A DNA stretch of 64,000 bases from an uncultured Ruminococcus sp. (GTDB lineage: Bacteria; Bacillota; Clostridia; Oscillospirales; Ruminococcaceae): contig CADAGC010000008.1 in assembly GCA_902787365.1 (NCBI GenBank), positions 59,494-123,493 of the forward strand. Reading direction: 5' to 3'. Both the position numbers and the translations under genes were made by a program. Positions 8,628-64,000 of this stretch are shown piece after piece. The notes beneath the pieces were generated by a model. That model was not told the origin of the DNA and made no database searches. It was given only the letters and a program-made list of their open reading frames with translations. The number at the start of each line of letters is the position of its first letter. Position 1 is the stretch's first letter.

Positions 8628-8695
8628 ATGTTTTGATTGCCGGGCTGAACAATGACGCTTTAAAAGGATAGCCACATAAGAAAACAAAACTTGGC

Positions 8696-8740
8696 GCCTG
8701 CGGCGATGATGCTGAAAATCATCGCTGCGGGCGATTTTGT
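8696..8740 (+). terminator. Hairpin upstream of the GGDEF operon
   Basis: A 15-base stem with two mismatches (8696-8710 with 8718-8732) is followed by GATTTTGTT. It could end transcription from the proBA side or act in a leader. The rest of 8628-8869 shows only a TATAAT (8813-8818) with a poor -35 region. Confidence 0.5.
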
Positions 8741-8869
8741 TCGTTATAGGAAATTAAATGATTTATTGCCCTTTATTCATTAATTTTCATAACTTTTTTA
8801 ATCTTAATATGTTATAATTTAGAATGCGCTAAGTATGTGCGCATATCTTAAAATAACGGTGAATAAAGA

Positions 8870-49930: not shown

Positions 49931-50004
49931 CGGGTGCTCGGCCGCACGGGTCAAGTGCCGCCGATGAAGCGTTTGGCTTAAGGTAAGGTATGGCACGGCG
50001 GCGT
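49931..50004 (+). repeat. Structured repeat, copy 2
   Basis: Near-identical to 8551-8624. Arms GCCGCCG (49957-49963) and CGGCGGC (49996-50002) keep the 32-base spacing of copy 1 with one compensatory pair change. It lies 100 bases upstream of a small membrane protein gene. Confidence 0.7.
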
Positions 50005-50103
50005 CGAACAATATGATTACTGAAACGTATGTAAAGGTGGCAAGCCCCTTCGGACACAAACCCCGATTATTCTTCCCAACTCTATACCACGAGGTGAACC
50101 AAA

Positions 50104-50445
50104 ATGTCAAAGAAGAGCTTCTATACACGCCTTGTGCTCTCCGTTCTGTTTATGCTTGTATGCATAGGCGGTGCGGCGGCTGAGGGGGTATACTATTATA
50201 TGTGCCGCACCGAGAAAATCCCCTATATGCAGGGCTTTCTTATGGCTATACCTACAGCGATAATCATATTCTGGGGGTCGTGTTTCTTCGATGCGGCTTC
50301 CCTCGATAAGTCGGGCGATAAAAAGCGGTATGTCATCAAGCGTGTGCCGAGAAAGGTGCTGGGTACGCTGTTTACGCTGTTCTGCTCGGGTGCGGTGCTT
50401 TTCTGGCTTTATGTCTATCATACCAATATCGCCAAGCTGTTTTGA
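50104..50445 (+). CDS. Small membrane protein (113 aa)
   Basis: Three hydrophobic segments (about 8-30, 38-58, 88-108) and basic loops (SGDKKRYVIKRVPRKV). No family recognised. GAGGTG precedes the start. It lies 17 bases before the lipase gene and so probably shares its transcript; it may help fold or anchor the lipase, but nothing shows this directly. Confidence 0.65.
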   Translation: MSKKSFYTRLVLSVLFMLVCIGGAAAEGVYYYMCRTEKIPYMQGFLMAIPTAIIIFWGSCFFDAASLDKSGDKKRYVIKRVPRKVLGTLFTLFCSGAVLFWLYVYHTNIAKLF

Positions 50446-50462
50446 AAAAGAGGTAATGTGTC

Positions 50463-51785
50463 ATGGGTGTTTCTCTGATAATAAAGGCGCTTCTCGCAAT
50501 AGCTGCTACTAACAGCTATGCCCTCACGCTTATGTATGTAAGCTCTCTGCCGCTTAAGATACTTGCTATCGCTGCGGCTGTCATATTTGTCCTTGTGATA
50601 AGCATATACCCCTGCAAGTCGAAAGAGGGCGGCAGGCTCGGGCGAATTCACAGGGGCAGCTGCCTTATGAAGTTTTTCCTGCTCTCCCTCGTCGCCGATA
50701 CGGCTTTTGATATATACCTCGGCGTGTCGGGCAAGGGCTGGCAGACGGTGCTTATAAACAGCCTTATTGCCGCAGTTCTGCTGGCTTTGATGTTCGTGGT
50801 TTCAGGGGTCAGGCTCTATACAGGCTCGGTGCAGCTGGGCATCAGGTGGCGTGCGGTGGGGCTTATGCTCGCTCTTGTGCCCATAGTGAATATCATAGTG
50901 CTTGTGCGTATGCTCTCGGTAGTTGATGAGGAGTATAGCTTTGAGTGCAAAAAGGTCGCCCTTGACCGCAGCAGAGCCGCCGAAAAGGTCTGCGCTACGA
51001 AATACCCGCTGCTTATGGTGCATGGGGTGTTTTTCAGGGATATTGAGCTTTTGAACTACTGGGGCAGGATACCTGCCGAGCTTGAGAAAAACGGCGCTAA
51101 GATATTCTACGGCAAGCAGCAGTCGGCCGACTCGGTCGAGGGCTGTGCCAAAGAGCTTGTAGAGCGTATAAATGAAATAGTCGAGAAAGAGGGCTGCGGC
51201 AAGGTCAATATCATAGCCCACTCAAAGGGCGGGCTTGACTCACGCTATGCAATATCGCTGCTTGGCGCTGATGAAAAGGTCGCAAGCCTTACCACAATAA
51301 ACACGCCCCACCACGGCTGCCAGTTTGCCGACTATCTGCTCGGCAAGGCGCCCGAGGGCTTTAAGAACGCAGTCGCTAACAAGTATAACGCCGCTTTGAA
51401 AAGGCTTGGCGATAACGAGCCTGATTTTATATCGGCTGTGACAGACCTTACCGCCTCGGCCTGCGCCGAGATGAATAAGATTTGTGAGGACAGCCCGAAA
51501 GTCAGCTACCGAAGCATCGGCTCACGCTCGGTGTCGGCGCTCGGCGGGCGCTTCCCGATGAACCTTTCATACCTCTTCGTCAAACACTTTGACGGCCCGA
51601 ATGACGGGCTTGTGTCGGTGGAGTCGATGAAGTGGGGCGATGATTTCCGCTTTATCGAGCCGACAGGCAAGCGTGGCATAACCCACGCCGATGTCATTGA
51701 CCTTAACCGTGAGAATATAGACGGCTTTGATGTCAGAGAATTCTATGTCAGCCTTGTCAGCGAACTCAAAGAGAAAGGCTTCTAA
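50463..51785 (+). CDS. Membrane-anchored alpha/beta-hydrolase, lipase-like
   Basis: A 440-aa protein. The N-terminal 150 residues hold four or five membrane helices. The hydrolase domain begins at YPLLMVHGVFFRD (oxyanion region), with the nucleophile Ser in IAHSKGGLDSRYA (near 254), Asp in GPNDGLVSVES and His in ITHADVIDL. This is the triacylglycerol lipase pattern with AHSKG instead of GHSxG, as in several Firmicute lipases. The catalytic domain probably faces outward, depending on the helix count. AGAGGTAA precedes the start. Confidence 0.82.
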   Translation: MGVSLIIKALLAIAATNSYALTLMYVSSLPLKILAIAAAVIFVLVISIYPCKSKEGGRLGRIHRGSCLMKFFLLSLVADTAFDIYLGVSGKGWQTVLINSLIAAVLLALMFVVSGVRLYTGSVQLGIRWRAVGLMLALVPIVNIIVLVRMLSVVDEEYSFECKKVALDRSRAAEKVCATKYPLLMVHGVFFRDIELLNYWGRIPAELEKNGAKIFYGKQQSADSVEGCAKELVERINEIVEKEGCGKVNIIAHSKGGLDSRYAISLLGADEKVASLTTINTPHHGCQFADYLLGKAPEGFKNAVANKYNAALKRLGDNEPDFISAVTDLTASACAEMNKICEDSPKVSYRSIGSRSVSALGGRFPMNLSYLFVKHFDGPNDGLVSVESMKWGDDFRFIEPTGKRGITHADVIDLNRENIDGFDVREFYVSLVSELKEKGF

Positions 51786-51867
51786 CGCCCGAATGGGCAT
51801 CTATCCGCCGTAAGGCGACACCACAATTATGCATTATGCATTATGAATTATGAATTATGAATTATAA
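51785..51867. repeat. Heptamer repeats with hairpins (locus 5)
   Basis: Hairpins CGCCCGAATGGGC and CGCCGTAAGGCG, then ATTATGCATTATGCATTATG and TTATGAA heptamers. On the minus strand it reads like 39217-39251 (GTGTCGCC next to heptamers). Confidence 0.65.
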
Positions 51868-51883
51868 AAGGGGGGGTCACACC

Positions 51884-52459
51884 ATGCAGAGTATACTTAT
51901 AGTTTCGGGCGATAAGGCTTTTGTAGGGCGCTTTGCCGCAATTCTTGCGGATATATATCCCGCAGCTGAAGTCTCGTCTGCTCTCTGCTGCGCCGATGCA
52001 AAGGGCGCTGTGCAGGGCGGCTGTGACCTTGTTATCATAGACGGCACGCTGTCAGAAACGGCGGCGGGTGAGCTTATGGCCGATATCACCGAAAAGACCG
52101 ATTCGGGCTGCATAGTCATAGCCCCAGACGGGCAGGAGGAAGCCCTTGCCGATAAGCTGGAAGATATGGGCATACTCGTGCTGCCGCAGCAGGCAGACAC
52201 AAAGCTTGTGCGCTGTACGGTAAAGCTTATAAGCGCATCACGAAAGCGCATACGTGGCTATGCTAAGGAAAACCTGCGGCTGCACCGCCGCCTTGATGAG
52301 ATAAAGGCCGTCAACCGTGCAAAGCTGGTGCTTATGCAGTATCTTAAGTTCTCGGAGAGCCAGGCACACAAGTATATCGAAAAGCAGGCTATGGATTTGC
52401 GTATGACCCGCTATGAGATAGCTATGAAGATAATCAAGACTTACGACCTTGACGCATAA
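51884..52459 (+). CDS. ANTAR-domain RNA-binding antiterminator
   Basis: A 191-aa response-regulator-like protein. Residues 1-120 form a receiver-like fold with the possible phosphorylation Asp in LVIIDGTLS but otherwise degenerate. Residues 130-190 are an ANTAR domain (LHRRLDEIKAVNRAKLVLMQ, SESQAHKYIEKQAMDLRM), which binds paired hexaloop hairpins in mRNA leaders. AAAGGGGGGG precedes the start. Targets are unknown; no glutamine synthetase or ethanolamine gene is in the window. Confidence 0.85.
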   Translation: MQSILIVSGDKAFVGRFAAILADIYPAAEVSSALCCADAKGAVQGGCDLVIIDGTLSETAAGELMADITEKTDSGCIVIAPDGQEEALADKLEDMGILVLPQQADTKLVRCTVKLISASRKRIRGYAKENLRLHRRLDEIKAVNRAKLVLMQYLKFSESQAHKYIEKQAMDLRMTRYEIAMKIIKTYDLDA

Positions 52460-52499
52460 AAACTCCCTTGTTCAGCATAGAACAGGGGAGTTTTTGCTT
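52459..52499. terminator. Bidirectional terminator
   Basis: A 15-base stem with one mismatch (52459-52473 with 52480-52494), then TGCTTTTG, between the ANTAR gene and the convergent queT. Confidence 0.85.
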
Positions 52500-52505
52500 T
52501 TGTAT

Positions 52506-53015
52506 TCAGAGTTTTTTCGATATTTTTTGTATAAGCTCCTGGTTTCGCCCGAGAAGCTTGAAAATAGCAGTTCCGAGGATAGTCACACAGACAAGCTCGC
52601 CTAACGCAACGCCGCCTGCCATTATCCAGAATGATACAGGCTCTTCTGACAGCAGGGTTATCTCGGCGCCCACCATCAGGGCGTTGAAGATAACGGGGAA
52701 GAACGAGCATAAAAGCAGCCGTGTCGAGCTGCCCTCCTTGCGGCAAAGATATATGCATATTCCCGCAAGCGCCGTGGCCGAGGTGCCTAATATCGTATCT
52801 ATAGCGCCGACAGTCGAGAAGATATTCGCCAGAAAGCACCCTATCGACAAAGAAGCGATGTAGTCCTTGTTGTAAAAGCAAAGAAGCATTAGCGCTTCGG
52901 ATATTCGAAACTGCACGCTCTGATATGCTATCGGTGCGCCTATAAGAGTAATTGCCGCATACATCGCAGCCACAAGGCCTATGCGTGTTATCCGCCTTGA
53001 ACTGAAATTCTCCAT
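52506..53015 (-). CDS. queT: QueT-family ECF transporter substrate-binding protein
   Basis: A 169-aa protein with about five membrane helices. VAAMYAAITLIGAPIAYQSV and QFRISEALMLLCFYNKDYIA resemble QueT, the S-component thought to import queuosine precursors through a shared ECF module. I do not see a preQ1 riboswitch in its leader; the upstream hairpin looks like the fba terminator. AGAGGGA precedes the start. Confidence 0.75.
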   Translation of the reverse strand: MENFSSRRITRIGLVAAMYAAITLIGAPIAYQSVQFRISEALMLLCFYNKDYIASLSIGCFLANIFSTVGAIDTILGTSATALAGICIYLCRKEGSSTRLLLCSFFPVIFNALMVGAEITLLSEEPVSFWIMAGGVALGELVCVTILGTAIFKLLGRNQELIQKISKKL

Positions 53016-53030
53016 ATAAAATCCCTCTTA

Positions 53031-53063
53031 AAAACAGGGTGCGCCTGCACGCAGACACACCCT
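53031..53063 (-). terminator. Terminator after fba
   Basis: On the minus strand a 28-base hairpin (arms AGGGTGTG and CGCACCCT with CTGC/GCAG inside) is followed by GTTTTT. It lies in what would be the queT leader, so queT may depend on read-through. Confidence 0.7.
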
Positions 53064-53088
53064 TGATACATTCGTGTATATTATGTAA

Positions 53089-53952
53089 TTATGCCTTGCC
53101 TACGGAACCGAAGAGCTCCATCTTTTCCTTGACCTTAGCCTTGATAGCCTCTACGCCGGGAGCTAAAAGCTTTCTGGGGTAGAAGCCCTTGCCCTGCTTG
53201 TCCTTGCCTGCCTCAACGTAGCCTCTTGTAGCCTCAGCGAATACGAGCTGGCACTCTGTGTTAACGTTTATCTTAGCAACGCCGAGAGAGATAGCCTTTG
53301 TGATCATATCGTCGGGGATACCTGTGCCGCCGTGGAGAACGAGGGGCATCTCGCCTACTGTCTTGTTGATAGCTTCGAGTGTCTCAAAGCTTAAGCCTTC
53401 CCAGTTGTCGGGATATACGCCGTGGATGTTGCCGATACCTGCTGCGAGGAAGTCAACACCAAGGTCAGCTATCTGCTTGCACTCTGCGGGGTCAGCGCAC
53501 TCGCCCTTGCCGATAACGCCGTCCTCTTCGCCGCCGATAGCGCCTACCTCAGCCTCGATAGAAAGACCGAGACCGTGTGCAACGTTAACGAGCTCTGTTG
53601 TCTTAGCAACGTTCTCGTCGATCGGGAAGTGTGAACCGTCGAACATTATAGATGTAAAGCCTGCCTTGATGCACTTGTAGCAGCCCTCATAGGAGCCGTG
53701 GTCAAGGTGAAGAGCAACGGGAACTGTGATGCCTAAGCTCTTGTCCATAGCTGCAACCATAGCTGCAACTGTCTCAAAGCCGCACATATACTTGCCTGCG
53801 CCCTCGGAAACACCAAGGATAACGGGAGACTGAAGCTCCTGTGCTGTCTGGAGTATAGCCTTTGTCCACTCAAGGTTGTTGATGTTGAACTGACCTACTG
53901 CGTATTTGCCTTCTCTTGCCTTTTTGAGCATTTCTGTAGCTGAAACTAACAT
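53089..53952 (-). CDS. fba: Class II fructose-bisphosphate aldolase
   Basis: A 287-aa zinc-dependent glycolytic enzyme. ALHLDHGSYEGCYKCI supplies the zinc-binding His and the catalytic Asp, SIMFDGSHFPIDEN and EAEVGAIGGEEDGV follow, and VLHGGTGIPDDMI carries another zinc His and the phosphate loop. ATGGAGG lies before the start. A strong promoter and compact leader point to high expression. Confidence 0.97.
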   Translation of the reverse strand: MLVSATEMLKKAREGKYAVGQFNINNLEWTKAILQTAQELQSPVILGVSEGAGKYMCGFETVAAMVAAMDKSLGITVPVALHLDHGSYEGCYKCIKAGFTSIMFDGSHFPIDENVAKTTELVNVAHGLGLSIEAEVGAIGGEEDGVIGKGECADPAECKQIADLGVDFLAAGIGNIHGVYPDNWEGLSFETLEAINKTVGEMPLVLHGGTGIPDDMITKAISLGVAKINVNTECQLVFAEATRGYVEAGKDKQGKGFYPRKLLAPGVEAIKAKVKEKMELFGSVGKA

Positions 53953-54012
53953 AATTACAAATCCTCCATATCAAACATTTGGGGCGTTGTCTGAGGAAGC
54001 CCCATTAAGTTA

Positions 54013-54041
54013 ATTATACTCCGTTTTCCCCCATATTGCAA
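54013..54041 (-). promoter_or_regulatory. fba promoter
   Basis: Minus-strand TTGCAA (54036-54041) and TATAAT (54013-54018), 17-base spacer. A TGGGGC/GCCCCA hairpin lies in the leader (about 53981-54005). Confidence 0.75.
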
Positions 54042-54131
54042 TAAGCTGCCGCATTTTTTACATATTGTTAAAATTTTGGCGAAGGGGAGGAGAGGGGCTT
54101 TTTTGGGGGCAAGGCAAAATGCACAAAATAA

Positions 54132-54219
54132 TAGTTCGATATCGAAGCATATTTATCACTTGGAGTATTGACGAAAGAGCGAAAATGGGGTATAATATAA
54201 TTAGTTAGATATCAAACTA
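54132..54219 (+). promoter_or_regulatory. marR promoter with two operator-like palindromes
   Basis: TTGACG (54168-54173) and TATAAT (54191-54196), 17-base spacer. Palindromes TAGTTCGATATCGAAGCA (54132-54149) and TAGTTAGATATCAAACTA (54202-54219) share TAGTT-GATATC-AA; one is upstream of the promoter, the other over the start of transcription. Confidence 0.75.
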
Positions 54220-54237
54220 TTATTTGGGAGGTGTGAG

Positions 54238-54753
54238 ATGAAAACTGATAACACTGCAGGGCATCGGCGCAGAATGACAGAGCAGGAGCTGATAAGAAAA
54301 AAGCCCGTTATGCTTGACTTTATCGCCCATAAGCTCGATGTTTATAATAACAGACAGCTCGCTCCGTTCGGGGTGACTCATTCGCAGGCAAAGCTTTTGG
54401 TGCGCATATCTCACTCGCAGGGCGGCAAGATAGCGCAGAGCGAACTTAAGGCTTTCGGGCGGCAGGGGTCAACGATAACCTCGCTGCTTGCAAACCTCGA
54501 AAAGAACGGCTTTATCTACCGTGAGTCGAGCGAGACTGATGCGAGGGCAAAATATGTGTGCCTAACCGAAAGCGGTATGCAGGTGGCCGATGTGGCTAAT
54601 GAAAACATCATAAAGCTCGATGAGCTGATAGATTCATCACTATCTAAAAAAGAGGCTGACACCTTGCACAGCCTGCTTGCAAAGGTCTGCGACACACTTC
54701 ACGACAGACTCTCAGATGAAGCATTTACAGAAGAAAGGAATGATAACACTTGA
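54238..54753 (+). CDS. MarR-family regulator of the ABC exporter
   Basis: A 171-aa winged-helix regulator: GVTHSQAKLLVRISHSQGGK, QSELKAFGRQGSTITSLLANLEKNGFIYRE and ARAKYVCLTESG form the DNA-binding domain. It leads an operon with two ABC half-transporters (4-base overlap) and almost surely binds the GATATC palindromes upstream, repressing itself and the exporter until a drug-like ligand binds. GGGAGGTG precedes the start. Confidence 0.92.
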   Translation: MKTDNTAGHRRRMTEQELIRKKPVMLDFIAHKLDVYNNRQLAPFGVTHSQAKLLVRISHSQGGKIAQSELKAFGRQGSTITSLLANLEKNGFIYRESSETDARAKYVCLTESGMQVADVANENIIKLDELIDSSLSKKEADTLHSLLAKVCDTLHDRLSDEAFTEERNDNT

Positions 54754-56480
54754 TAAAGAAGCTTTTTCCGTGTATCAAGGGCTATGAAAAATATACTCTG
54801 CTCACGCCGCTCGTTATGATTGGCGAGGTGGGTATGGAGGTGCTTATCCCCCTTGTTATGGCAAAGATAGTCGATGTGGGTATCGAGGGCAGCGGCGGCA
54901 CGTCATATACCGTCAAAATGGGTATACTTATGGTGGTAATGGCCTGCGTTTCGATGATGTTCGGCTCGCTGGGCGCATATTTCGGCGCAAAGGCCAGCAT
55001 GGGCTTTTCAAAGAACTTAAGAAACCGCCTTTTTAATAAGGTGCAGGATTTCTCTTTCAAGAATATCGACAAGTTCTCGACAGCGTCGCTTGTCACAAGA
55101 CTGACGACCGACGTAAATATGGTGCAGAACTCGTTCCTGATGTTCATCAAAATGGCTTTCCGTGCGCCTGTTATGCTAATAGGTGCGCTTATAATGGCTA
55201 TCAACGTAAAGCCCGACCTCTCGGTGGTGTTCTTAGTGGCTGTGCCGATACTCGGCCTTTCAATGGTGCTGATAATGACCCACGCACACCCCCGCTTCAA
55301 GCTTATGCTCGAACGCTATGATAAAATGAACTCTGACGTTCAGGAAAACCTTATCGGCATACGTGCAGTCAAGGCTTTTGTAAGAGAGGACTATGAGAAC
55401 AAGAAGTTCACCACGGGCGCTGACCTTGTAAGAAGAGCACAGGTGGCGGCAGAAAAGATAGTTATCCTCACACAGCCTATAATGCAGATAACTATGTATG
55501 CTACGATAGTTTCGGTGCTCTGGTTCGGCGGCAATATGGTCATCGGCGGCGATATGCTCATAGGCGAGCTTTCGACCTTTATCACCTACATAAACCAGAT
55601 CCTCGGCTCGCTGATGATGATATCCATGATATTTATGATGCTGGTTATTTCAAGGGCTTCTATGACAAGAATAGTTGAGGTCCTCGAAGAAGACCCCGAC
55701 ATAACAGACGATAACGCTACAGATGTCAAGGTGGAGAACGGCTCTATTGAGTTTAAGAACGTTTCGTTCAGCTATAAGGAATCGGCAGAAGAAGCGGTGC
55801 TCAGAAATATCGACCTGAAGATCGCTTCGGGCGAGACTATAGGCATCATCGGTGCTACAGGCTCAGCAAAGACTACACTCATATCCCTTATACCGAGACT
55901 TTATGATGTCACCTCGGGCGAGGTGCTCGTAGGCGGCAGAAATGTCAAGGACTATAAGCTTGCAAATCTGCGTGACGAGGTTTCGGTAGTATTACAGAAA
56001 AACGTGCTCTTCTCGGGCACTATCAGAGAAAACCTGCGCTGGGGCGACTTTGAGGCTACAGATGAAGAGATAGAAAAAGCCTGCGAGGCGGCCTGCGCTG
56101 ATGAGTTTATCAACTCATTCCCCGACGGGTATGAAACAGACCTCGGCCAGGGCGGCGTTAACGTATCGGGCGGCCAGAAGCAGAGACTTTGTATCGCAAG
56201 AGCGCTTATCAAAAAGCCTAAGATACTTATTCTTGATGACTCGACAAGTGCTGTTGATACAGCGACAGATGCCAAGATAAGAAAAGCTTTCAAGGAACAG
56301 CTTGACGATACCACTACTATTATAATAGCACAGCGTATATCTTCGGTAAAGGACGCTGACAGGATAATAGTTCTTGAAGACGGCGAGATAGACGGCATAG
56401 GCACACACGATGAACTGCTAAAAACAAATGCCGTTTATAAAGAAGTCTATGATTCACAGCAGAAGGGAGATGAGGACTGA
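54750..56480 (+). CDS. ABC exporter half-transporter, degenerate ATPase site
   Basis: A 576-aa protein with six membrane helices (about 15-320) and an ATPase domain. Walker A is GATGSAKTT (near 367), with Ala in place of the usual Gly before Lys. The signature VSGGQKQRL is good, but Walker B ends LILDDSTSAVD, with Asp in place of the catalytic Glu. This is the degenerate partner pattern of heterodimeric exporters such as BmrC/D or TM287/288. The start is probably TTG at 54750, overlapping the marR stop, with AAAGGA upstream. Confidence 0.92.
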   Translation: MIKKLFPCIKGYEKYTLLTPLVMIGEVGMEVLIPLVMAKIVDVGIEGSGGTSYTVKMGILMVVMACVSMMFGSLGAYFGAKASMGFSKNLRNRLFNKVQDFSFKNIDKFSTASLVTRLTTDVNMVQNSFLMFIKMAFRAPVMLIGALIMAINVKPDLSVVFLVAVPILGLSMVLIMTHAHPRFKLMLERYDKMNSDVQENLIGIRAVKAFVREDYENKKFTTGADLVRRAQVAAEKIVILTQPIMQITMYATIVSVLWFGGNMVIGGDMLIGELSTFITYINQILGSLMMISMIFMMLVISRASMTRIVEVLEEDPDITDDNATDVKVENGSIEFKNVSFSYKESAEEAVLRNIDLKIASGETIGIIGATGSAKTTLISLIPRLYDVTSGEVLVGGRNVKDYKLANLRDEVSVVLQKNVLFSGTIRENLRWGDFEATDEEIEKACEAACADEFINSFPDGYETDLGQGGVNVSGGQKQRLCIARALIKKPKILILDDSTSAVDTATDAKIRKAFKEQLDDTTTIIIAQRISSVKDADRIIVLEDGEIDGIGTHDELLKTNAVYKEVYDSQQKGDED

Positions 56481-58411
56481 TGGCAGGACCCAGAGGAGGC
56501 GGCCCCGGCGGCAGAGGGCAAAAGCCGCTTGAAAAGCCCAAGAACGTGGGCGTGACTATCAGGCGCATATTCTCCTATATGAAGGAATACAAGCCGATGA
56601 TAATACTCGTTGTGGTGTTTATCATAATATCGGCACTTGCCTCGGTAATAGGCACATCATTCCTCAAAAAGGTGATAGACGACTGCATAAAGCCCATGAT
56701 TGACGGCAAGACGGACGAGGGCATGAGCAAATTCATAAAGACCCTTACTGTTATGAGCATAGTATATGTGATAGGTGCGGCATCTACATTCTGCTATGCA
56801 AGGATAATGCTCAATATCTCCACCAAGGCGCTTTACAAGATAAGGGTAGACCTTTTCACGAAAATGGAAGCGCTGCCCATACGCTTTTTTGACACCCACA
56901 CCCACGGCGAGGTTATGAGCCGCTACACCAATGATGTTGACACCCTGCGTGAGATGCTCTCAAACTCTCTTGCAAGCTTCATCTCGGCATTCATCACCGT
57001 AACGGGCGTGTTCGTTATGATGATATACTACAGCTGGCAGCTCACGCTTATAGTTATACTGCTTTTCTTTGTTATAGTTAAGCTCACAGCCTTTATCGGC
57101 TCACGCTCGGGAGCGTATTTCAAGGAGCAGCAGAAAAACGTAGGCCGTGCCAACGGCTATATCGAGGAAATGATAGAGGGCGTCAAGGTAGTCAAGGTCT
57201 TCTGCCACGAGCAGAAAGCCAAGAACGAGTTTGACGTGATAAACGACGACCTGAGAAAGGCAGCCACCAAGGCAAACACCTTTGCAAGCATCATGGGGCC
57301 TCTGATGAATAACCTCTCATATATCCACTATGCGATAACCGCTATCATCGGCGGCATAATGGCTATAAAGGGCGTTCACACATTCAGCGGCGTGTTCACG
57401 GTTGGTACGGTAATTGCTTTCTTGCAGTATACAAGAAACTTCGCTATGCCCATTCAGCAGATATCCCAGCAGTTCAACTCGGTGCTCTCGGCTCTGGCTG
57501 GTGCTGAGAGGGTGCTCTCGATAATCGACGAGACTCCCGAGGTTGACGACGGCTATGTTACACTTGTCAACGCCAAGATCGACGAGAACGGCAACATCAC
57601 CGAATCCGATAAGAGAACAGGCATCTGGGCTTGGAAGCACCCCCACCAGGCAACAGGCGAGGTGACTTACACCAAGCTCGAGGGCAGGGTTGAGTTTGAC
57701 GACGTAACTTTCGGCTATGAGCCTGAAAAGACAGTCCTCAATGGTATAACCCTTTACGCCAAGGCGGGGCAGAAGATAGCCTTTGTCGGCTCGACAGGTG
57801 CAGGCAAGACGACTATCACAAACCTCATAAACCGCTTCTACGATGTGCCCGACGGCAAGATACGCTATGACGGCATAAACATCAACAAAATAAAGAAAGC
57901 AGACCTCAGACGCTCGCTTTCAATGGTTTTGCAGGACACCCACCTTTTCACGGGAACTGTAATGGACAACATTCGCTTCGGCAAGCTTGACGCTTCTGAT
58001 GACGACTGCATAAAGGCCGCAAAGCTTGCAAACGCACACAGCTTCATCAAGCACCTGCCCGAGGGGTATAACACAGTCATCACTGGCGACGGCGCCAATC
58101 TCTCGCAGGGTCAGAGGCAGCTTTTAGCGATAGCAAGAGCCGCAGTTGCCGACCCGCCCGTGCTTATCCTCGACGAAGCGACCTCGTCGATAGACACGAG
58201 AACAGAAGCTCTCATCGAAAAGGGCATGGACTCGCTTATGGCAGGCAGAACGGTATTCGTTATCGCCCACAGGCTCTCGACCGTCCGCAACTCAAACGCT
58301 ATTATGGTGCTCGAGCACGGCAAGATAATCGAGCGTGGCGACCACGACGACCTTATCGCCCAGAAAGGCAAGTACTACCAGCTCTATACGGGTATGTTTG
58401 AGCTTAGTTGA
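56480..58411 (+). CDS. ABC exporter half-transporter, catalytically complete
   Basis: A 643-aa partner of the preceding protein. It begins with a Gly/Arg-rich tail (GPRGGGPGGRG), has six membrane helices (about 35-345) and an ATPase with Walker A GSTGAGKTT (near 437), Walker B LILDEATSSIDTR and H-loop AHRLSTV. The signature is LSQGQRQLL rather than LSGGQ, as expected for this half of the heterodimer. A 50-residue insert lies before the ATPase domain (about 360-410). The pair probably exports drugs or amphiphiles. The ATG overlaps the previous stop by one base. Confidence 0.93.
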   Translation: MAGPRGGGPGGRGQKPLEKPKNVGVTIRRIFSYMKEYKPMIILVVVFIIISALASVIGTSFLKKVIDDCIKPMIDGKTDEGMSKFIKTLTVMSIVYVIGAASTFCYARIMLNISTKALYKIRVDLFTKMEALPIRFFDTHTHGEVMSRYTNDVDTLREMLSNSLASFISAFITVTGVFVMMIYYSWQLTLIVILLFFVIVKLTAFIGSRSGAYFKEQQKNVGRANGYIEEMIEGVKVVKVFCHEQKAKNEFDVINDDLRKAATKANTFASIMGPLMNNLSYIHYAITAIIGGIMAIKGVHTFSGVFTVGTVIAFLQYTRNFAMPIQQISQQFNSVLSALAGAERVLSIIDETPEVDDGYVTLVNAKIDENGNITESDKRTGIWAWKHPHQATGEVTYTKLEGRVEFDDVTFGYEPEKTVLNGITLYAKAGQKIAFVGSTGAGKTTITNLINRFYDVPDGKIRYDGININKIKKADLRRSLSMVLQDTHLFTGTVMDNIRFGKLDASDDDCIKAAKLANAHSFIKHLPEGYNTVITGDGANLSQGQRQLLAIARAAVADPPVLILDEATSSIDTRTEALIEKGMDSLMAGRTVFVIAHRLSTVRNSNAIMVLEHGKIIERGDHDDLIAQKGKYYQLYTGMFELS

Positions 58412-58420
58412 TATATGCAT

Positions 58421-58455
58421 AACGCCCTCCGGCTTCGGAGGGCGTTGACTTTTAT
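58421..58455 (+). terminator. Terminator after the exporter operon
   Basis: A perfect 11-bp stem (58421-58431 with 58436-58446), then GACTTTTATG. Confidence 0.8.
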
Positions 58456-58485
58456 GTTCTCATATTTATTTTAACAAACTCCCCC

Positions 58486-58514
58486 TTGCATTTCTCCCTC
58501 ATTCGTGATATAAT
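58486..58514 (+). promoter_or_regulatory. hisS promoter
   Basis: TTGCAT and TATAAT, 17-base spacer, 51 bases before the hisS start; too little room for a T-box leader. Confidence 0.65.
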
Positions 58515-58565
58515 AGTAAAATAAGCGAATTATGCATAATTTTCAGACGAAAGGACGTATAAATA

Positions 58566-59876
58566 ATGGCTTTGATTGCAAAAAGACCAAACGGAACAAT
58601 GGACGTTACACCTAACGAGGTATATAAATGGCATACAGTCGAGAACGTGGTTAAGGAAACCGCCGAGCAGTTCGGCTTTAAGGAGATAAGAATACCCACT
58701 TTTGAGGATACAGGGCTTTTTGTAAGAGGCGTTGGCGATACTACCGACGTTGTGCAAAAGGAGATGTATACAGTTTCCTCAACAGGCGATAAGACCTATA
58801 CCCTGCGCCCCGAGGGCACAGCAGGTACGGTAAGAGCCGTGCTTGAAAACGGTATACTCAACGACGGCCTGCCGCAGAAACTTTTCTATATCCTCTCCTG
58901 CTTCCGCCACGAAAAGGCGCAAAAGGGCAGACTGCGTGAATTTCACCAGTTCGGCTGTGAGATGTTCGGCTCGCCCTCGCCCCTTGCAGATGCAGAGGTA
59001 ATATCCCTTGCATATAGCGTTATAACAAGGCTCGGCCTTAAGAATACCGAGCTTAATATAAACTCTATCGGCTGCCCCGAGTGTAGGGCAAAGTACCGTG
59101 AGGCGCTCAAAGCCTACTTCGAGCCTCACCGTGATGAGCTTTGCGATACCTGTAAGGAAAGGCTCGATAAGAACCCTATGCGCCTGCTCGACTGTAAGTC
59201 TAAGGAGGATCAGGAGATAGCAAAGGACGCACCGCTTATCACAGAATACCTCTGCGACGAGTGTGCCGACCACTTTGGTAAGGTCAAGGAATACCTCGGC
59301 CTTATGGGTATCGAGTATAAGATAAACCCCAAGATCGTAAGAGGTCTTGACTACTATACACGTACTGTTTTTGAGTTCCTGACTACCGATATCGGCTCGC
59401 AGGCAGCAGTCTGCGCAGGCGGTCGCTATGACGGCCTTGTAGAGTCGCTCGGCGGTAAGCCCACACCTGCGCTCGGCTTCGGTATGGGTCTTGAAAGAAT
59501 AATCCTCACTATGGAGAGCCAGGGTCTTGACTTTGCACAGGACGGCGGCTGTGAGCTTTATATCGCACCTATGGGTGATAAGGCAGCAGCCTATGCGGCA
59601 GGCCTTATAGCGAAACTGCGTGATATGGGCGTTTACGCCGAGTATGACCTTATAGGCCGCTCGCTCAAAGCGCAGATGAAGTATGCCGATAAGATAGGCG
59701 CAAAGTTCGTTATCGTGCTCGGCGATAACGAGATAGAGCAGGGCAAGATTAACGTCAAGAAAATGGCAACAGGCGAGCAGACAGCCTTTGATGTTGATGA
59801 CAGCTTCCCCGAGAGACTTTCCGATTTCATAATGGCAAGCCTTGTTGAGGAGCTTGATATGGAGGGACTTTTATAA
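58566..59876 (+). CDS. hisS: Histidyl-tRNA synthetase
   Basis: A 436-aa class II synthetase. Motif 2 reads CFRHEKAQKGRLREFHQFG, the histidine-binding block is VRGLDYYTRTVFEF, and motif 3 is PALGFGMGLERI. The anticodon-binding domain is at the C-terminus (ELYIAPMGDKAAAYAAGLIA onward). GAAAGGA precedes the start. The next gene overlaps its stop by one base. Confidence 0.97.
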   Translation: MALIAKRPNGTMDVTPNEVYKWHTVENVVKETAEQFGFKEIRIPTFEDTGLFVRGVGDTTDVVQKEMYTVSSTGDKTYTLRPEGTAGTVRAVLENGILNDGLPQKLFYILSCFRHEKAQKGRLREFHQFGCEMFGSPSPLADAEVISLAYSVITRLGLKNTELNINSIGCPECRAKYREALKAYFEPHRDELCDTCKERLDKNPMRLLDCKSKEDQEIAKDAPLITEYLCDECADHFGKVKEYLGLMGIEYKINPKIVRGLDYYTRTVFEFLTTDIGSQAAVCAGGRYDGLVESLGGKPTPALGFGMGLERIILTMESQGLDFAQDGGCELYIAPMGDKAAAYAAGLIAKLRDMGVYAEYDLIGRSLKAQMKYADKIGAKFVIVLGDNEIEQGKINVKKMATGEQTAFDVDDSFPERLSDFIMASLVEELDMEGLL

Positions 59877-60190
59877 TGAGATGTCCGATTTGCGAAAACA
59901 TTCCGCTTATTGAGTTTACAAACCCGCTTGAGTATATGATGGCGGTAAATGCCGTGACCAATATGCTGGTTCAGGGCAATATTGAGATGATTTACCAGAC
60001 CTGCCCCCTCGACCAGGTGGTGGATAAGGACGGCAAGTTCTATTCCGGCAGGATATTCCACCAGTTTTCCTGTGCTATGTGCGGCACTATATATGGTATG
60101 CTTGCAAATCCCCTTGCAGGCGGTGGTGAGATAAGGATAAACGATAAGCCTTTCCGCCCCGAGGATTACGAAGATAAGGATAAGGAATAA
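59876..60190 (+). CDS. Unrecognised 104-aa protein with Cys pairs
   Basis: MRCPICENIP at the start and FSCAMCGTIYGM near residue 65 give two CxxC units that could bind zinc, with CPLDQVV between them. No membrane segment. The start overlaps the hisS stop (TAATG) and its own stop overlaps the next start, so the three genes are coupled. I do not recognise the family. Confidence 0.65.
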   Translation: MRCPICENIPLIEFTNPLEYMMAVNAVTNMLVQGNIEMIYQTCPLDQVVDKDGKFYSGRIFHQFSCAMCGTIYGMLANPLAGGGEIRINDKPFRPEDYEDKDKE

Positions 60191-60675
60191 TGCTTGTTAT
60201 ACTACCCATATCCTTTGAGTATGAGAGCAGCGCCACGCCGAAGCGTATAGCAAGGCGGCTCGACGGCGAGCTTATACAAAAGCGCCCCAGCGCCAATGTT
60301 ATGGCAAACTCAAAGTTCATAAAGAAATATAAGACCCAGTCGGTATTCTACGGCTGCCGCAGCGGTGAAGATAAATTCAGCGTTTTCTACCACGAGGCAG
60401 GCAGGCGTGATACTGGGTCACTGGGCTTTTACGGCAGGCTTGAAAAGTCGGGCAAGGGCACTAAGATATCGGGGCATTTCAGAAAGCCCCTTTCCGCCTA
60501 TATTTTCGGGGCGGTGTGGGTGCTCATCACCTTTATGTTCTCACTCATAGCCCTCTCCCTTGATAATATGGGCGCCTGCATATGCGGCGCTGTGCTGTTG
60601 CTTTTGGGAGTGTTTATCCTTTTCTTTGACAAGGGCAAGAAAAAAGTGATAAGGGCGTTTATCGAGTCGCTGTGA
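60190..60675 (+). CDS. Unrecognised 161-aa membrane protein
   Basis: A soluble N-terminal domain (about 1-95; SSATPKRIARRLDGELIQKR, then KYKTQSVFYGCRSGEDKF) and two C-terminal membrane helices (about 103-122 and 127-146) ending in a basic tail (DKGKKKVIRAFIESL). No family recognised. It follows the CxxC protein with a one-base overlap. Confidence 0.6.
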   Translation: MLVILPISFEYESSATPKRIARRLDGELIQKRPSANVMANSKFIKKYKTQSVFYGCRSGEDKFSVFYHEAGRRDTGSLGFYGRLEKSGKGTKISGHFRKPLSAYIFGAVWVLITFMFSLIALSLDNMGACICGAVLLLLGVFILFFDKGKKKVIRAFIESL

Positions 60676-60715
60676 AGCTGTGTTAAAGCGGCTTTTGAAA
60701 GATATATGATGTAAT

Positions 60716-60755
60716 TTGACAAAATAAAACACCTGTGGTATAATAATCACAGGTG
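60716..60755 (+). promoter_or_regulatory. Toxin-like gene promoter (locus 1) with palindrome
   Basis: TTGACA (60716-60721) and TATAAT (60739-60744), 17-base spacer. The 8-bp arms CACCTGTG (60730-60737) and CACAGGTG (60748-60755) bracket the -10 box and may be an operator. Confidence 0.85.
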
Positions 60756-60815
60756 CTTGCACTTAGCGTAGGCGGTCAAATCTAACCTCCGATTTCTAAA
60801 GGAGGTGAGCAGAAA

Positions 60816-60950
60816 ATGACGGTAATTGAAGTATTGACTTTACTTATACTGATAACCAATGTCATAGCTCTTGTCGAGATATCTGCGGCAAAAAGAAATA
60901 ACCGCCTTACCCCAAATAAGACGGTTAAACATTTAAAAACCATTTCTTAG
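60816..60950 (+). CDS. 44-aa membrane peptide, candidate type I toxin
   Basis: ATG 60816 with AAAGGAGGTGAGC upstream. The peptide has one membrane helix (VLTLLILITNVIALVEI, residues 6-22) and a basic tail (AAKRNNRLTPNKTVKHLKTI), like small holin-like or TxpA/Fst-type toxins. The ribosome site is in a hairpin: ACCTCC (60785-60790) pairs with GGAGGT (60801-60806). A strong promoter lies upstream, and a consensus promoter and terminator on the other strand would make an antisense RNA over its 3' half. Toxic activity is inferred from this layout; the exact family is not certain. Confidence 0.75.
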   Translation: MTVIEVLTLLILITNVIALVEISAAKRNNRLTPNKTVKHLKTIS

Positions 60951-60982
60951 GAGGAGACCGCTTACAGCGAGCACCTCTTTGT
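60888..60982 (-). ncRNA. Candidate antisense antitoxin RNA (locus 1)
   Basis: About 95 bases from the predicted start near 60982 to a terminator in the toxin ORF: the minus-strand stem (60917-60926 with 60900-60909, one G-U pair) is followed by ATTTCTTTTT. It would pair with codons 25-44 and the 3' region of the toxin mRNA. Confidence 0.75.
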
Positions 60983-60988
60983 ATGTAT

Positions 60989-61017
60989 ATTATAGCACAC
61001 AAACACAAGATTGTCAA
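60989..61017 (-). promoter_or_regulatory. Promoter of the antisense RNA (locus 1)
   Basis: Minus-strand TTGACA (61012-61017) and TATAAT (60989-60994) with exactly 17 bases between: a full consensus promoter pointing back into the toxin gene. Confidence 0.88.
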
Positions 61018-61044
61018 TAGTTTACCGAAAGGAAGTAAATAGAA

Positions 61045-62817
61045 ATGAATGACACTATGAAGGGTCTAAAAAGAACACACTACTGCGGCGAGGTGCCGAA
61101 TACCGAGCAGGAGGTAGTTGTCTGCGGCTTTACCGATAGAGTAAGGGATATGGGCAACCTTATCTTCATAAACCTGCGTGACAGAACTGGCCTTGTGCAG
61201 CTGACATTCGGTGATAATACCGACAGGGAGATATTCGCTAAGGCTCAGACAGTAAGAGCAGAAGACGTGCTTATGGTAAAGGGCGACGTCAGAAAGCGTG
61301 AGAGCGTAAACGATAAGCTCAAAACAGGCCAGATAGAGATACACGTTACCGACCTGCGTATTCTCTCCCGTGCAGAGACAACACCTTTTGAGGTCACAAA
61401 TTCCGATAAGGTCAATGAGGAGCTTAAGCTTCGCTACCGCTACCTTGACCTTAGAAACCCCAGACTCCAGAACAATATCATCACCCGCCACAATATTGCT
61501 AAAGTCGCAAGAGATTATTTCTATGAGAACGGCTTTATCGAAATAGAAACACCTATGTTTATGAAGTCTACCCCCGAGGGTGCGAGAGACTACCTCGTGC
61601 CGTCGAGAGTTCACCCGGGCAAGTTCTACGCTCTGCCCCAGTCGCCCCAGATATATAAGCAGCTGCTTATGATATCGGGCTTTGACCGCTATATCCAGCT
61701 TGCAAGATGCTTCAGAGATGAAGACCTGCGTGCTGACAGACAGCCCGAGTTCACACAGATAGACTTAGAAATGTCATTCGTTGACCAGGAGGATATACAG
61801 TCCTGCGTTGAGGGCTTTGTAAGCAGGCTTTTCAAGGATATCCTCGGTGAGGAGATAGCTCTCCCGCTGCCGAGACTGACCTTTGCAGACGCTATGAACC
61901 GCTACGGCTCCGATAAGCCCGACACCCGCTTTGGTATGGAGATTCAGGATATCTCCGACTGGGCAGGCAAGACGGATTTCGTGGTATTCAAGGGCGCAAT
62001 AGAAAACGGCGGCTCTGTTCGTGCGATAGTTGCAAAGAACGCAGCTTCCGTTTATACAAGAAAAGAGATAGACAAGCTCACCGAGCACGCAAAGGGCATA
62101 GGCGCTAAGGGTCTTGCCTACGTGCGCTGGGTAGAGGACGCACCCAACTGCTCATTCGCTAAGTTCTTAAAAGAGGGCGAGCTTGATGAGCTGCTCACCA
62201 AGCTGGGAGCTGAAAAGGGCGACGTTGTTATAATAGTTGCCGATAAGGATAAGGTGACTCTTCCCACCCTCGGCGCACTCCGTCTTATCATGGGCAAGCG
62301 CCTTGAGCTTATCGACGAGAGCAAGCACAACTTCCTGTGGATAACCGAAATGCCCTTCTTTGAGTATGACGAGGAGAGCGGCACATGGGTTGCTATGCAC
62401 CACCCCTTCACAATGCCTATGGACGAGTGCGTTGCGTACCTGGAGAGCGACCCCGAAAAGGTAAGAGCGCAGGCCTGGGACTTAGTACTCAACGGCGTCG
62501 AGCTTTCATCAGGCTCAATGAGAATAACCGACTGCGCACTTCAGGAGAAGATGTTCGAGCTTCTCGGCATGGGCAAAGAGGAGATAGAGCAGAAGTTCGG
62601 CTTCCTTGTTGACGCATATAAGTACGCAGCACCCCCTCACGGCGGCATGGGCATAGGCCTTGACAGAATTGCTATGATAATCTGCGGCGCACAGAGCCTG
62701 CGAGATGTTACAGCGTTCCCCAAGGTGCAGAATGCAAGCGAGCTTATGAGCCAGTGCCCCGCTGTGGTAGACGACAAGCAGCTTGAAGAGCTTCACATAA
62801 AGACAGTAGCAGAATAA
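61045..62817 (+). CDS. aspS: Aspartyl-tRNA synthetase
   Basis: A 590-aa bacterial-type class II synthetase. An OB-fold anticodon domain (VVVCGFTDRVRDMGNLIFIN) comes first; motif 2 contains CFRDEDLRADRQPEFTQIDLE; the bacterial GAD insert lies at about 280-420; motif 3 is GGMGIGLDRIAMII. GAAAGGAAG precedes the start. The antisense promoter of locus 1 lies directly upstream on the other strand. No T-box is seen. Confidence 0.97.
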   Translation: MNDTMKGLKRTHYCGEVPNTEQEVVVCGFTDRVRDMGNLIFINLRDRTGLVQLTFGDNTDREIFAKAQTVRAEDVLMVKGDVRKRESVNDKLKTGQIEIHVTDLRILSRAETTPFEVTNSDKVNEELKLRYRYLDLRNPRLQNNIITRHNIAKVARDYFYENGFIEIETPMFMKSTPEGARDYLVPSRVHPGKFYALPQSPQIYKQLLMISGFDRYIQLARCFRDEDLRADRQPEFTQIDLEMSFVDQEDIQSCVEGFVSRLFKDILGEEIALPLPRLTFADAMNRYGSDKPDTRFGMEIQDISDWAGKTDFVVFKGAIENGGSVRAIVAKNAASVYTRKEIDKLTEHAKGIGAKGLAYVRWVEDAPNCSFAKFLKEGELDELLTKLGAEKGDVVIIVADKDKVTLPTLGALRLIMGKRLELIDESKHNFLWITEMPFFEYDEESGTWVAMHHPFTMPMDECVAYLESDPEKVRAQAWDLVLNGVELSSGSMRITDCALQEKMFELLGMGKEEIEQKFGFLVDAYKYAAPPHGGMGIGLDRIAMIICGAQSLRDVTAFPKVQNASELMSQCPAVVDDKQLEELHIKTVAE

Positions 62818-62849
62818 CAACACCATTTGAAACGGAAAGGAAAAGCACT

Positions 62850-63224
62850 ATGGCACTAAGAAAATCCGGCGAAGATTATCTCGAGGCTATCCTTGTGATA
62901 GGCAAGCGCAAGGCGCAGGTTAGATCAATTGACGTGGCAAACGAGCTTGGCTTTTCAAAGCCCTCAGTCAGCCGTGCCATGTCGCTTTTAAAGGAGGGCG
63001 GCTTTATCACCGTCGATAAGGACGGCTCGCTCAACCTTACAGACGTAGGCCGTGAAAAGGCCGAGGACGTTTACGGCAGGCATTGTCTGCTCACCGAGTT
63101 TTTCAGAGATATTCTCGGTGTCAGCGAGGAAAACGCCGCCGAAGACGCCTGCCAGGTCGAGCACGTTATCTCGGCCGAGACTTTTGACAAGCTCACGGGG
63201 TTTGTTAAGAAGTATACCAAGTGA
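62850..63224 (+). CDS. DtxR/MntR-family metal-dependent regulator
   Basis: A 124-aa protein with a winged-helix domain (SIDVANELGFSKPSVSRAMS) and the metal/dimer domain. Ligand positions of the MntR type are visible: SGEDYLEAI (Asp9, Glu12), H in GRHCLLTEFF, and EDACQVEHVIS. There is no third SH3-like domain, which favours the MntR-like short form; Mn or Fe sensing is inferred. GAAAGGAAAAG precedes the start. It is followed by a strong terminator. Confidence 0.9.
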   Translation: MALRKSGEDYLEAILVIGKRKAQVRSIDVANELGFSKPSVSRAMSLLKEGGFITVDKDGSLNLTDVGREKAEDVYGRHCLLTEFFRDILGVSEENAAEDACQVEHVISAETFDKLTGFVKKYTK

Positions 63225-63231
63225 GCAGTAT

Positions 63232-63266
63232 AAAAAGCCCCTTGCTTTGTCAAGGGGCTTTTTATG
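63232..63266. terminator. Terminator after the DtxR/MntR gene
   Basis: A perfect 13-bp stem (63232-63244 with 63251-63263), AAAAAGCCCCTTG and inverse, ending in a T run. Confidence 0.92.
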
Positions 63267-63274
63267 TGCGGGCG

Positions 63275-63303
63275 TTGACTTTCCGGAAACTATGTGCTAT
63301 AAT
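63275..63303 (+). promoter_or_regulatory. Toxin-like gene promoter (locus 2)
   Basis: TTGACT and TATAAT with a 17-base spacer, 65 bases before the start codon. Confidence 0.82.
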
Positions 63304-63368
63304 ATACCCATAGTCTGAGTTCGGTAACGAAGATTGGCGGTCTCCTTAGAGATAAGGAGGTGGTAGTA

Positions 63369-63464
63369 ATGGAATACATAACCTTTACAGACTTGGTTAT
63401 TTACACCGAGATGCTCGTGGGTGTGATTACCCTCTGCTACCTGCTCTTCCACAAGAAGAAATAG
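63369..63464 (+). CDS. 31-aa membrane peptide, candidate type I toxin
   Basis: ATG 63369 after AAGGAGGTGG. The product has one membrane helix (LVIYTEMLVGVITLCYLLF) and a Lys-rich end (HKKK), as in Fst/holin-like toxins. The ribosome site is closed by a 7-bp hairpin CTCCTTA-GAGA-TAAGGAG (63342-63359). Downstream, a shared hairpin terminator and a convergent consensus promoter give the arrangement of the plasmid pAD1 par (Fst/RNAII) system. The resemblance is structural; toxicity is inferred. Confidence 0.72.
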   Translation: MEYITFTDLVIYTEMLVGVITLCYLLFHKKK

Positions 63465-63504
63465 TTAGTACTTAGAGAAACCTTTTAAAAGGGGACAACA
63501 AGGA

Positions 63505-63616
63505 AAACACCGCCAAAACTCTGAATAGGTTGGCGGTGTTTATTCACACAATACTTACAAGGAGTGCCGCTTTTATCCCGAGGGGGTGCAACCCCTTGGG
63601 GCCCAGGCTATTCCTT
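63505..63616 (-). ncRNA. Candidate convergent antitoxin RNA (locus 2)
   Basis: About 110 bases from the predicted start near 63616 to the shared hairpin. It contains a stem-loop with arms 63577-63585 and 63592-63600 (CCCGAGGGG/CCCCTTGGG). It does not cover the toxin ORF but would overlap the 3' part of the toxin mRNA. Confidence 0.6.
63506..63540. terminator. Shared hairpin between toxin mRNA and convergent RNA (locus 2)
   Basis: A perfect 11-bp stem AACACCGCCAA (63506-63516) with its inverse (63530-63540), 13-base loop. T tracts on both sides are short. Confidence 0.6.
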
Positions 63617-63622
63617 TCCTAT

Positions 63623-63651
63623 AGTATACCACACCCTTGGCATTTTGTCAA
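63623..63651 (-). promoter_or_regulatory. Promoter of the convergent RNA (locus 2)
   Basis: Minus-strand TTGACA (63646-63651) and TATACT (63623-63628), 17-base spacer. The plus strand of 63634-63663 also forms a CCCTTG/CAAGGG hairpin followed by GGCTTTTTT, a plus-strand terminator. Confidence 0.8.
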
Positions 63652-63824
63652 GGGGCTTTTTTGCCGCCGCTTTTTCCATTTCTGCCCCATTTTTGTGCAC
63701 CTCGCTACAAAACACCCCTCAACATTTGTGAAACATTACCCCTTTAAAACTCTCAAAACCGTGCGATGTATATAACGTAAGCGGCAAGGAGTTAGCGCAC
63801 AGCTCCAAGCCAAACAAAACCATA

Positions 63825-63842
63825 CACGGCAAGGAAGCCGTG
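63825..63842 (+). promoter_or_regulatory. CsrA-type hairpin in the flagellin leader
   Basis: Stem CACGGC/GCCGTG with loop AAGGAA, so a GGA is presented in the loop. A second GGA lies in the ribosome site ATGGAGGT (63861-63868). This matches the two-site CsrA arrangement known for the Bacillus hag leader. Confidence 0.55.
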
Positions 63843-63875
63843 AACAAAATTTTATAATACATGGAGGTATTTATT

Positions 63876-64000
63876 ATGAGTATGGTAGTAAGAACTAATT
63901 CAATGGCAATGAGCGCAAACAGTGCACTCAACAAGAACAACTCAACAGTAGCAGGTAACCTGCAGAAGCTTTCCACAGGCTTCAGAATCAACCGTGCAGC
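63876..64000 (+). CDS. Flagellin, N-terminal part
   Basis: The first 41 codons of a flagellin, cut by the window edge. VVRTNSMAMSANSALNKNNS and LQKLSTGFRINRA form the conserved D0 helix that packs in the filament core. GGAGG lies 8 bases before ATG 63876. A leader of at least 90 bases carries a CsrA-like hairpin. The preceding 225 bases (63652-63875) hold no gene; I could not find a well-spaced sigma-28 promoter. Confidence 0.92.
   Translation, partial: MSMVVRTNSMAMSANSALNKNNSTVAGNLQKLSTGFRINRA

Follow-up and report, generated by a model that had tools for sequence, protein, structure and literature searches.

A small, unannotated gene pair lies between a membrane protein gene and aspS in the genome of an uncultured Ruminococcus sp. 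(assembly GCA_902787365.1, contig CADAGC010000008.1). It occupies positions 60716-61017 of the window, by which we mean the whole 64,000-nt stretch of DNA analysed (contig positions 59,494-123,493, forward strand). Its features, in window coordinates, are as follows.

60716-60744, plus strand: promoter of the toxin mRNA, TTGACA-N17-TATAAT, 12/12 consensus; predicted start near 60751
60730-60737 and 60748-60755, no strand assigned: arms CACCTGTG and CACAGGTG of an inverted repeat (dyad) over the plus-strand -10 box
60751-60760, plus strand: leader segment 1, AGGTGCTTGC, pairing with 60967-60976 in the minimum free energy (MFE) fold
60768-60777, plus strand: leader segment 2, GTAGGCGGTC, pairing with 60956-60965 in the MFE fold
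60785-60790, plus strand: anti-Shine-Dalgarno (anti-SD) ACCTCC, pairing with the SD at 60801-60806 (MFE) or, through 60786-60790, with GGAGG at 60950-60954 (duplex prediction)
60801-60806, plus strand: Shine-Dalgarno (SD) GGAGGT, sequestered in the MFE fold
60816-60950, plus strand: toxin gene, 44-aa frame; first ~20 codons conserved, with a single hydrophobic stretch; C-terminal tail shifted
60899-60901, plus strand: TAA serving as the stop codon in most relatives of the aspS-locus alignment, out of frame in the window
60950-60976, plus strand: 3' end of the mRNA, GGAGGAGACCGCTTACAGCGAGCACCT, partner of the leader, followed by CTTTGT
60899-60927, minus strand (read 60927-60899): terminator-like hairpin of the antitoxin, with a T-rich tail; the toxin mRNA forms a hairpin here as well
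60889-60982, minus strand: predicted antitoxin RNA, ~94 nt, complementary to the last ~94 nt of the mRNA
60989-61017, minus strand (read 61017-60989): promoter of the antitoxin, TTGACA-N17-TATAAT, 12/12 consensus

The two promoters converge, each matching the sigma-70 consensus at all 12 positions around a 17-nt spacer; pairs of perfect hexamers 16-18 nt apart occur at five sites in the whole 64-kb window. The first-pass annotation had already recognized both promoters, the palindrome over the -10 box (60730-60755) and the hairpin closing the ribosome site (ACCTCC on GGAGGT), and all are present where it put them; its minus-strand RNA of about 95 nt, with a terminator inside the peptide gene, agrees with the ~94 nt predicted here. 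A search for the peptide reading frame at a lax threshold gave 75 matches, a few of them clearly false (L087, L096, L097). The best minus promoter is 12/12 at 62 of these matches, the best plus promoter at 34 and both at 28, as against none in 750 mononucleotide shuffles for either promoter. Fourteen matches without a plus promoter of at least 9/12 or a minus promoter of at least 10/12 in place were dropped, leaving 61 cassettes, and three more without the leader motif, leaving 58; the promoter requirement biases both sets towards intact cassettes. The family counts include groups of related cassettes; in the test of leader pairing a non-redundant set of 22 members gave the same answer.

In cassettes of the genus the -10 dyad has arms of 8-14 bp, G-T pairs allowed, in 14 of 19 cases, with letters that vary between copies and an A-rich flank on the left; on the minus strand this gives a stem with a T-rich tract after it. 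Outside the genus, arms reach 6-11 bp in 15 of 39 cassettes and fall below 6 bp in 24. The dyad is perhaps, to judge from its form, a terminator stopping antisense read-through, or less probably a protein-binding site; the terminator scan, whose loop limit is 8, does not list it. Because of this minus-strand terminator form in the genus and the short arms outside it, we provisionally rejected a dedicated repressor site as first choice.

The predicted toxin mRNA, from ~60751 to 60982 (~232 nt), folds with a z-score of -5.2, none of 200 shuffles being as stable. The ~40 nt at its start pair with the ~35 nt at its end, an interaction that shows strong covariation and had escaped the first-pass annotation. 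In an alignment of 33 mRNAs, chosen among the 58 and none with long leader inserts, the helix made by segment 1 is paired in 82.5% of cells and has double changes in all eight of its pairs; that made by segment 2 is paired in 97% of cells, with double changes in two of eight. RNAalifold recovered both unaided, double changes affecting 14 of the 27 pairs of the whole structure, and its covariation score, 0.311, compares with 0.173 in shuffles (0/500) and with 0.07-0.13 when slid. The 3' stem at 60950-60976 is absent from the terminator scan; it is probably, on its sequence, the terminator of the toxin mRNA. The leaders of L002, L016, L109, L105 and L106 keep the pairing segments and have long extra hairpins, inserted either downstream of segment 2 or between it and segment 1.

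The third pairing segment of the leader is the anti-SD itself. When leaders were set against the last 50 nt of their mRNAs, 52 of 61 cassettes beat all 100 shuffles; the nine that did not include a copy on another contig (C5) of the same genome, which has a long leader insert and whose leader was cut at 70 nt. Pairing is specific to the cognate partner: in the 58 cassettes segment 1 pairs at -19.0 kcal/mol with its own 3' end and at -9.9 with non-cognate ones, segment 3 at -13.0 and -9.5, and anti-SD with SD at -11.2 and -9.7 (0/5000 permutations in each case). The non-redundant set gave 0/5000 for each of segments 1 and 3 and 1/5000 for the SD hairpin. The anti-SD region pairs better with the 3' segment in 40 of the 58 cassettes and with the SD in 18; both the RNAalifold consensus and the MFE fold of the window copy place it on the SD, not on the 3' end.

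On the other strand, the sequence has the parts of an antisense RNA gene: a promoter and a terminator of its own, and an overlap with the mRNA. The antitoxin hairpin is helix 4 of the 33-mRNA alignment, paired in 95.7% of cells and doubly changed in three of seven pairs, and the antitoxin as a whole folds with a z-score of -2.8, equalled by 4 of 200 shuffles. In its 5' third the antitoxin is similar to the leader of the toxin mRNA. This is necessarily so, since the antitoxin complements the mRNA 3' end, which pairs with the leader, and the likeness is no independent evidence; the antitoxin 5' part can, judging by its sequence, compete with the leader for the mRNA 3' end.

The predicted cost of opening the SD suggests the consequence of this competition. 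Over the 58 cassettes the full mRNA has a median cost of 5.2 kcal/mol, little more than half of the 9.5 predicted when the last 60 nt are missing. Blocking the last 52 nt, to mimic bound antitoxin, gives 9.2, while exchanging the 3' ends between cassettes gives 7.8 and scrambling them 9.4. Taken cassette by cassette, the full mRNA has the lower cost in 54 (higher in 2) against the form lacking the last 60 nt, in 49 (higher in 1) against the blocked form, in 44 (higher in 10) against swapped and in 54 (higher in 1) against scrambled 3' ends. The window copy is predicted to switch weakly, at 7.0 kcal/mol full, 9.4 without the last 60 nt and 8.5 blocked; with swapped 3' ends its cost is lower still, at 5.8. 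The plain unpaired probability of the SD, which is less informative than the opening cost, averages 0.16 in the full and 0.11 in the blocked form, rising by more than 0.1 in 11 of 61 cassettes and falling in 2. Since the SD is mostly paired in every predicted state, the mRNA 3' end would, by prediction, loosen the lock on the ribosome site without opening it. Members of one subfamily (such as L079, L082, L085 and L117) carry an extra C-rich/G-rich leader pair before the SD; in L079 the 3' end lowers the opening cost from 13.2 to 4.4 kcal/mol, and the on/off sense seems, in these models, to be kept.

The mechanism that we propose runs as follows. The plus promoter would yield an mRNA of ~232 nt for a hydrophobic, basic-ended peptide, and the convergent promoter an antisense RNA of ~94 nt complementary to the last ~94 nt of that mRNA. 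Once finished, the mRNA 3' end would fold back on the leader as a panhandle, compete for the anti-SD and so loosen the lock. The antitoxin, leader-like in its 5' part, would take the 3' end away; the ribosome site would therefore close again, and the duplex would lie open to RNase III. Transcription, toxicity of the peptide, the direction of the switch and the role of RNase III are what we infer in this scheme.

The main rival keeps the family and reverses the switch, after the model of hok and AapA. In this reading the full-length panhandle would be inert, nuclease trimming of the 3' end would activate it, and the antitoxin would stop the trimmed form. A stable 5'-3' interaction together with SD hairpins is indeed the design of AapA3, in which, according to PMC6733600, the interaction locks the mRNA and translation takes place from the form that has lost its last 35 nt; and here too the SD is mostly closed at full length. 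Trimming is nevertheless predicted to leave our mRNAs more closed rather than less (the 9.5 against 5.2 kcal/mol above, with the full form lower in 54 of 58 and higher in 2), and the 3' segment outcompetes the SD for the anti-SD region in 40 cassettes against 18, so that we regard the reversed switch as unlikely, while ranking it ahead of the other alternatives.

The closest known systems are bsrG/SR4, bsrE/SR5 and AapA/IsoA. Like the present family, bsrG/SR4 of Bacillus subtilis has an antitoxin overlapping the mRNA 3' end, an SD in a short stem and a small hydrophobic toxin; the stem enclosing the SD grows from 4 to 8 bp when the antitoxin binds far away, BsrG being 38 aa and SR4 180 nt long (PMC6562991, PMC7430163 and PMC4147584). 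The predicted switch would follow the logic described there, that antitoxin binding extends the SD stem. It differs in the shorter antitoxin (~94 against 180 nt), in peptides of mostly 24-30 aa against 38, in a score for the Hol_Tox family below the cut-off, and perhaps in the extensive, covarying leader/3'-end pairing that the antitoxin imitates. The bsrE/SR5 and bsrH systems of B. subtilis resemble the family in toxin size (30 and 29 aa) and in their convergent, 3'-overlapping antitoxins; SR5 is longer (163 against ~94 nt) and leaves the structure of the ribosome site unaltered (PMC7430163). With AapA/IsoA of Helicobacter pylori and hok/Sok the family shares SD hairpins and the long-distance 5'-3' interaction of the mRNA (PMC6733600), here predicted and covarying; in those systems the mRNA is locked by its 3' end and activated by trimming, whereas here the 3' end is predicted to loosen the lock. 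Fst/par of pAD1 likewise has convergent RNAs and a small hydrophobic toxin, but its RNAs have a common terminator and interact via direct repeats (PMC4147584), whereas the antitoxin hairpin at 60899-60927 and the presumed mRNA stem at 60950-60976 are separate, and the antitoxin has a sequence similar to that of our leader, not complementary to it. Fst-type membership was rejected on these two grounds, and of the three likenesses drawn in the first-pass annotation, to TxpA, BsrG and Fst, the better comparison is the TxpA/BsrG/BsrE one.

The peptide of the window copy departs from those of its relatives. Its frame tracks the aspS-locus relatives to ~60873, where the alignment shows a net one-base frame change ahead of an AAAAAG run; the TAA at 60899-60901 is consequently out of frame, and translation would continue through the antitoxin terminator to 60950. 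Family peptides are mostly 24-30 aa long, and 57 of the 58 comparable cassettes have 18-33 aa, the lone exception being the window with 44; at the aspS locus of six genus genomes, six of seven toxin genes have 27-29 aa. A 29-column alignment of twelve short forms has the consensus MSVIEVLTLLLLITNIIALxVEIYNxKKK. Over the first 20 codons dN is below dS in all 174 usable pairs (126 of the 300 pairs compared have no usable dS), with a ratio of sums of 0.17, and on this measure the family peptide is under purifying selection. The single-helix, basic-tailed peptide of 44 aa noted in the first-pass annotation does exist as a reading frame, and its first 20 codons are conserved in relatives; beyond about codon 20 the window's frame is not, and the 44-aa form is not the conserved product. 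The first-pass annotation had named a peptide frame not kept in close relatives, next to conserved flanks, as evidence against itself; this holds for the part after about codon 20 and not for the part before it.

The window's 44-aa form could itself be functional, as a variant whose basic tail is longer: both promoters are intact, the tail keeps its basic character after the shift, with many K and R residues, and the first 20 codons have diverged from L015 with dN 0.07 and dS 0.39. This we think improbable, given the lengths found in the other 57 cassettes, a frame that runs through the antitoxin terminator, and signs of toxin decay elsewhere, namely a deletion remnant on C5 of the same genome (near 9660), which retains a stretch resembling the antitoxin promoter, and inserts in the toxin genes of two relatives. 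Since the frameshift has replaced the last residues, the window toxin is probably weakened or dead, by its sequence, with the antitoxin half looking intact; the layout is in this respect probably less than complete, its RNA parts excepted. The frameshift may also be an assembly error. The inserts, in L110 (~560-780) and L038 (minus strand, ~1260-1430), which belong to different species, are similar and small, with inverted ends AAGGCAATACC.../...GGTATTGCCTT (one variant letter), and resemble a miniature transposable element; such breakage is expected if the toxin is costly. Among rnc suppressor strains of B. subtilis, one had a frameshift in txpA (PMC3531473).

Database matches to these elements are sparse. 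The 44-aa peptide matched nothing convincing in Pfam or NCBIfam, and PHROGs and NCBIfam gave weak matches only. Nine of the 12 members of the short-form alignment A1 match Hol_Tox (PF16935) weakly, the best with an E-value of 0.017, and the highest score, 22.0 bits (E 1.5e-4), belongs to the L163 peptide; the cut-off of 23.3 bits was reached by no sequence scanned, nor in any of 21 genomes, and the window peptide had no match. Rfam at gathering score found nothing in window positions 50000-64000 or in ten representative loci, and a lax scan of 60600-61100 gave two weak, unrelated matches only. We found no earlier description of the cassette family among titles and abstract openings in the open-access literature.

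The peptide was matched in all seven genus genomes. In the six in which aspS was found the cassette lies directly upstream of it, once as a tandem pair, making seven toxin genes; this constancy would suit a role as aspS leader or attenuator in place of a toxin-antitoxin pair. We rejected such a role, and consider it most improbable, on the other genomic sites of the cassette: it also occurs beside genes that we take, from their translations judged by eye, to be mnmG-like and rsmG-like, as well as in tandem and in a phage record, and its peptide is under purifying selection. A second complete cassette of the same genome lies on C5, at about 8577-8951. Contig C66 of this genome (L010, 1480-1640) carries a promoter with dyad and hairpin, without toxin or antitoxin, a remnant of a lost copy; it lies upstream of an rsmG-like gene, a place where another species has a full cassette (L037). 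Beyond the genus, 37 of 297 genomes of the bacterial family match the peptide at E 0.1 or better, some by chance. A separate search gave 11 named loci, several of them from ruminant gut; they belong to Ruminococcus sp. and to uncultured Clostridiales bins.

The antitoxin RNA reaches further. A covariance model, R1, was built from 38 antitoxins, that of the window (82.4 bits) among them; it has nine base pairs only, its last positions overlap the last codons of the toxin, and its calibration was short, which makes the E-values rough. It matches 37 of 100 relatives at E 0.01, 68 of 245 genomes of the order at E 0.01, with at most 17 matches per genome, and, as an RNA-model match alone, 64 of 341 genomes of the class at E 0.001. 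Two genomes, G069 and G287, have 17 matches each at E 0.01, several of them clustered, some with a spacing of roughly 330-370 nt. Of 42 R1 loci 35 were read, the seven of the genus being left out as known; one, L141, is the locus of the model member L024, and another, L137, was already known through its peptide. Opposite the match, 28 of the 35 have a hydrophobic peptide of 21-35 aa, many unlike the window's, as against 27 of 1400 control positions elsewhere in these loci under the same rule, and 7 have no hydrophobic ORF by that rule; leader/3'-end pairing beats all 100 mononucleotide shuffles at 24 of the 35 (two not computed). Since these peptides are often unlike the window's and the pairing persists at 24 loci, the antitoxin RNA is, at the level of sequence, better conserved than the peptide. 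L157 and L160, R1 matches without a hydrophobic ORF by the rule, are possible orphan antitoxins.

A human-faecal phage record, MT837839.1, contains a complete cassette (L128, 3000-3310) with a short peptide and both promoters. It sits between phage ORFs, presumably tail-module genes by our own reading, in a record without annotation, and leader/3'-end complementarity is visible by eye. Searches of phage and plasmid proteins with the C5 peptide of the window's genome, of phage proteins with one divergent family peptide and of plasmid DNA for the cassette found none; among viral contigs, alignment gave 55 pattern stretches, none confirmed, and the leader pattern gave none.

Chance convergence of promoter-like and hairpin-like intergenic sequence, single motifs of which are cheap (about four promoter-like sites are expected in 3.5 kb), is refuted by the conserved and covarying elements of dozens of cassettes, and its likelihood is negligible.

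Our preferred reading is that the cassette belongs to a Clostridia-wide family of type I toxin-antitoxin systems in which the mRNA 3' end loosens the lock on the ribosome site and the antitoxin recloses it, the window's toxin being degenerate; to this whole statement we give a probability of about 0.6. That there is such a type I family is, taken by itself, highly probable; the whole ranks lower since it includes the direction of the switch, and two folds lack the anti-SD on the 3' end. The elements, their conservation, the covariation, the selection on the peptide and the predicted energies all come from the sequence, and it is conservation, purifying selection and RNA covariation that bear out, for the family, the type I assignment which the first-pass annotation had made from anatomy; the window's own toxin, being probably degenerate, falls short of it. 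A broader proposal, to which we would give somewhat under an even chance, is that of an undescribed Clostridia-wide RNA chassis serving many dissimilar short hydrophobic peptides, with the 3' end as a cis-activator that would draw the anti-SD away from the ribosome site and the antitoxin as a leader decoy winning that 3' end, the subfamily with the extra leader pair keeping the same on/off sense.

For the window itself the outcome is the more modest one of a copy whose toxin has probably been lost. For the family, if the reading is true, Clostridia would gain a large set of toxin genes so short that they are easily missed, together with their antitoxin RNAs, many of them from ruminant guts and one copy in a faecal phage record; the antitoxin RNA model finds loci whose peptides are too short or divergent to be recognized; and the switch would have a clear design, that of one 3' end with two competing partners.
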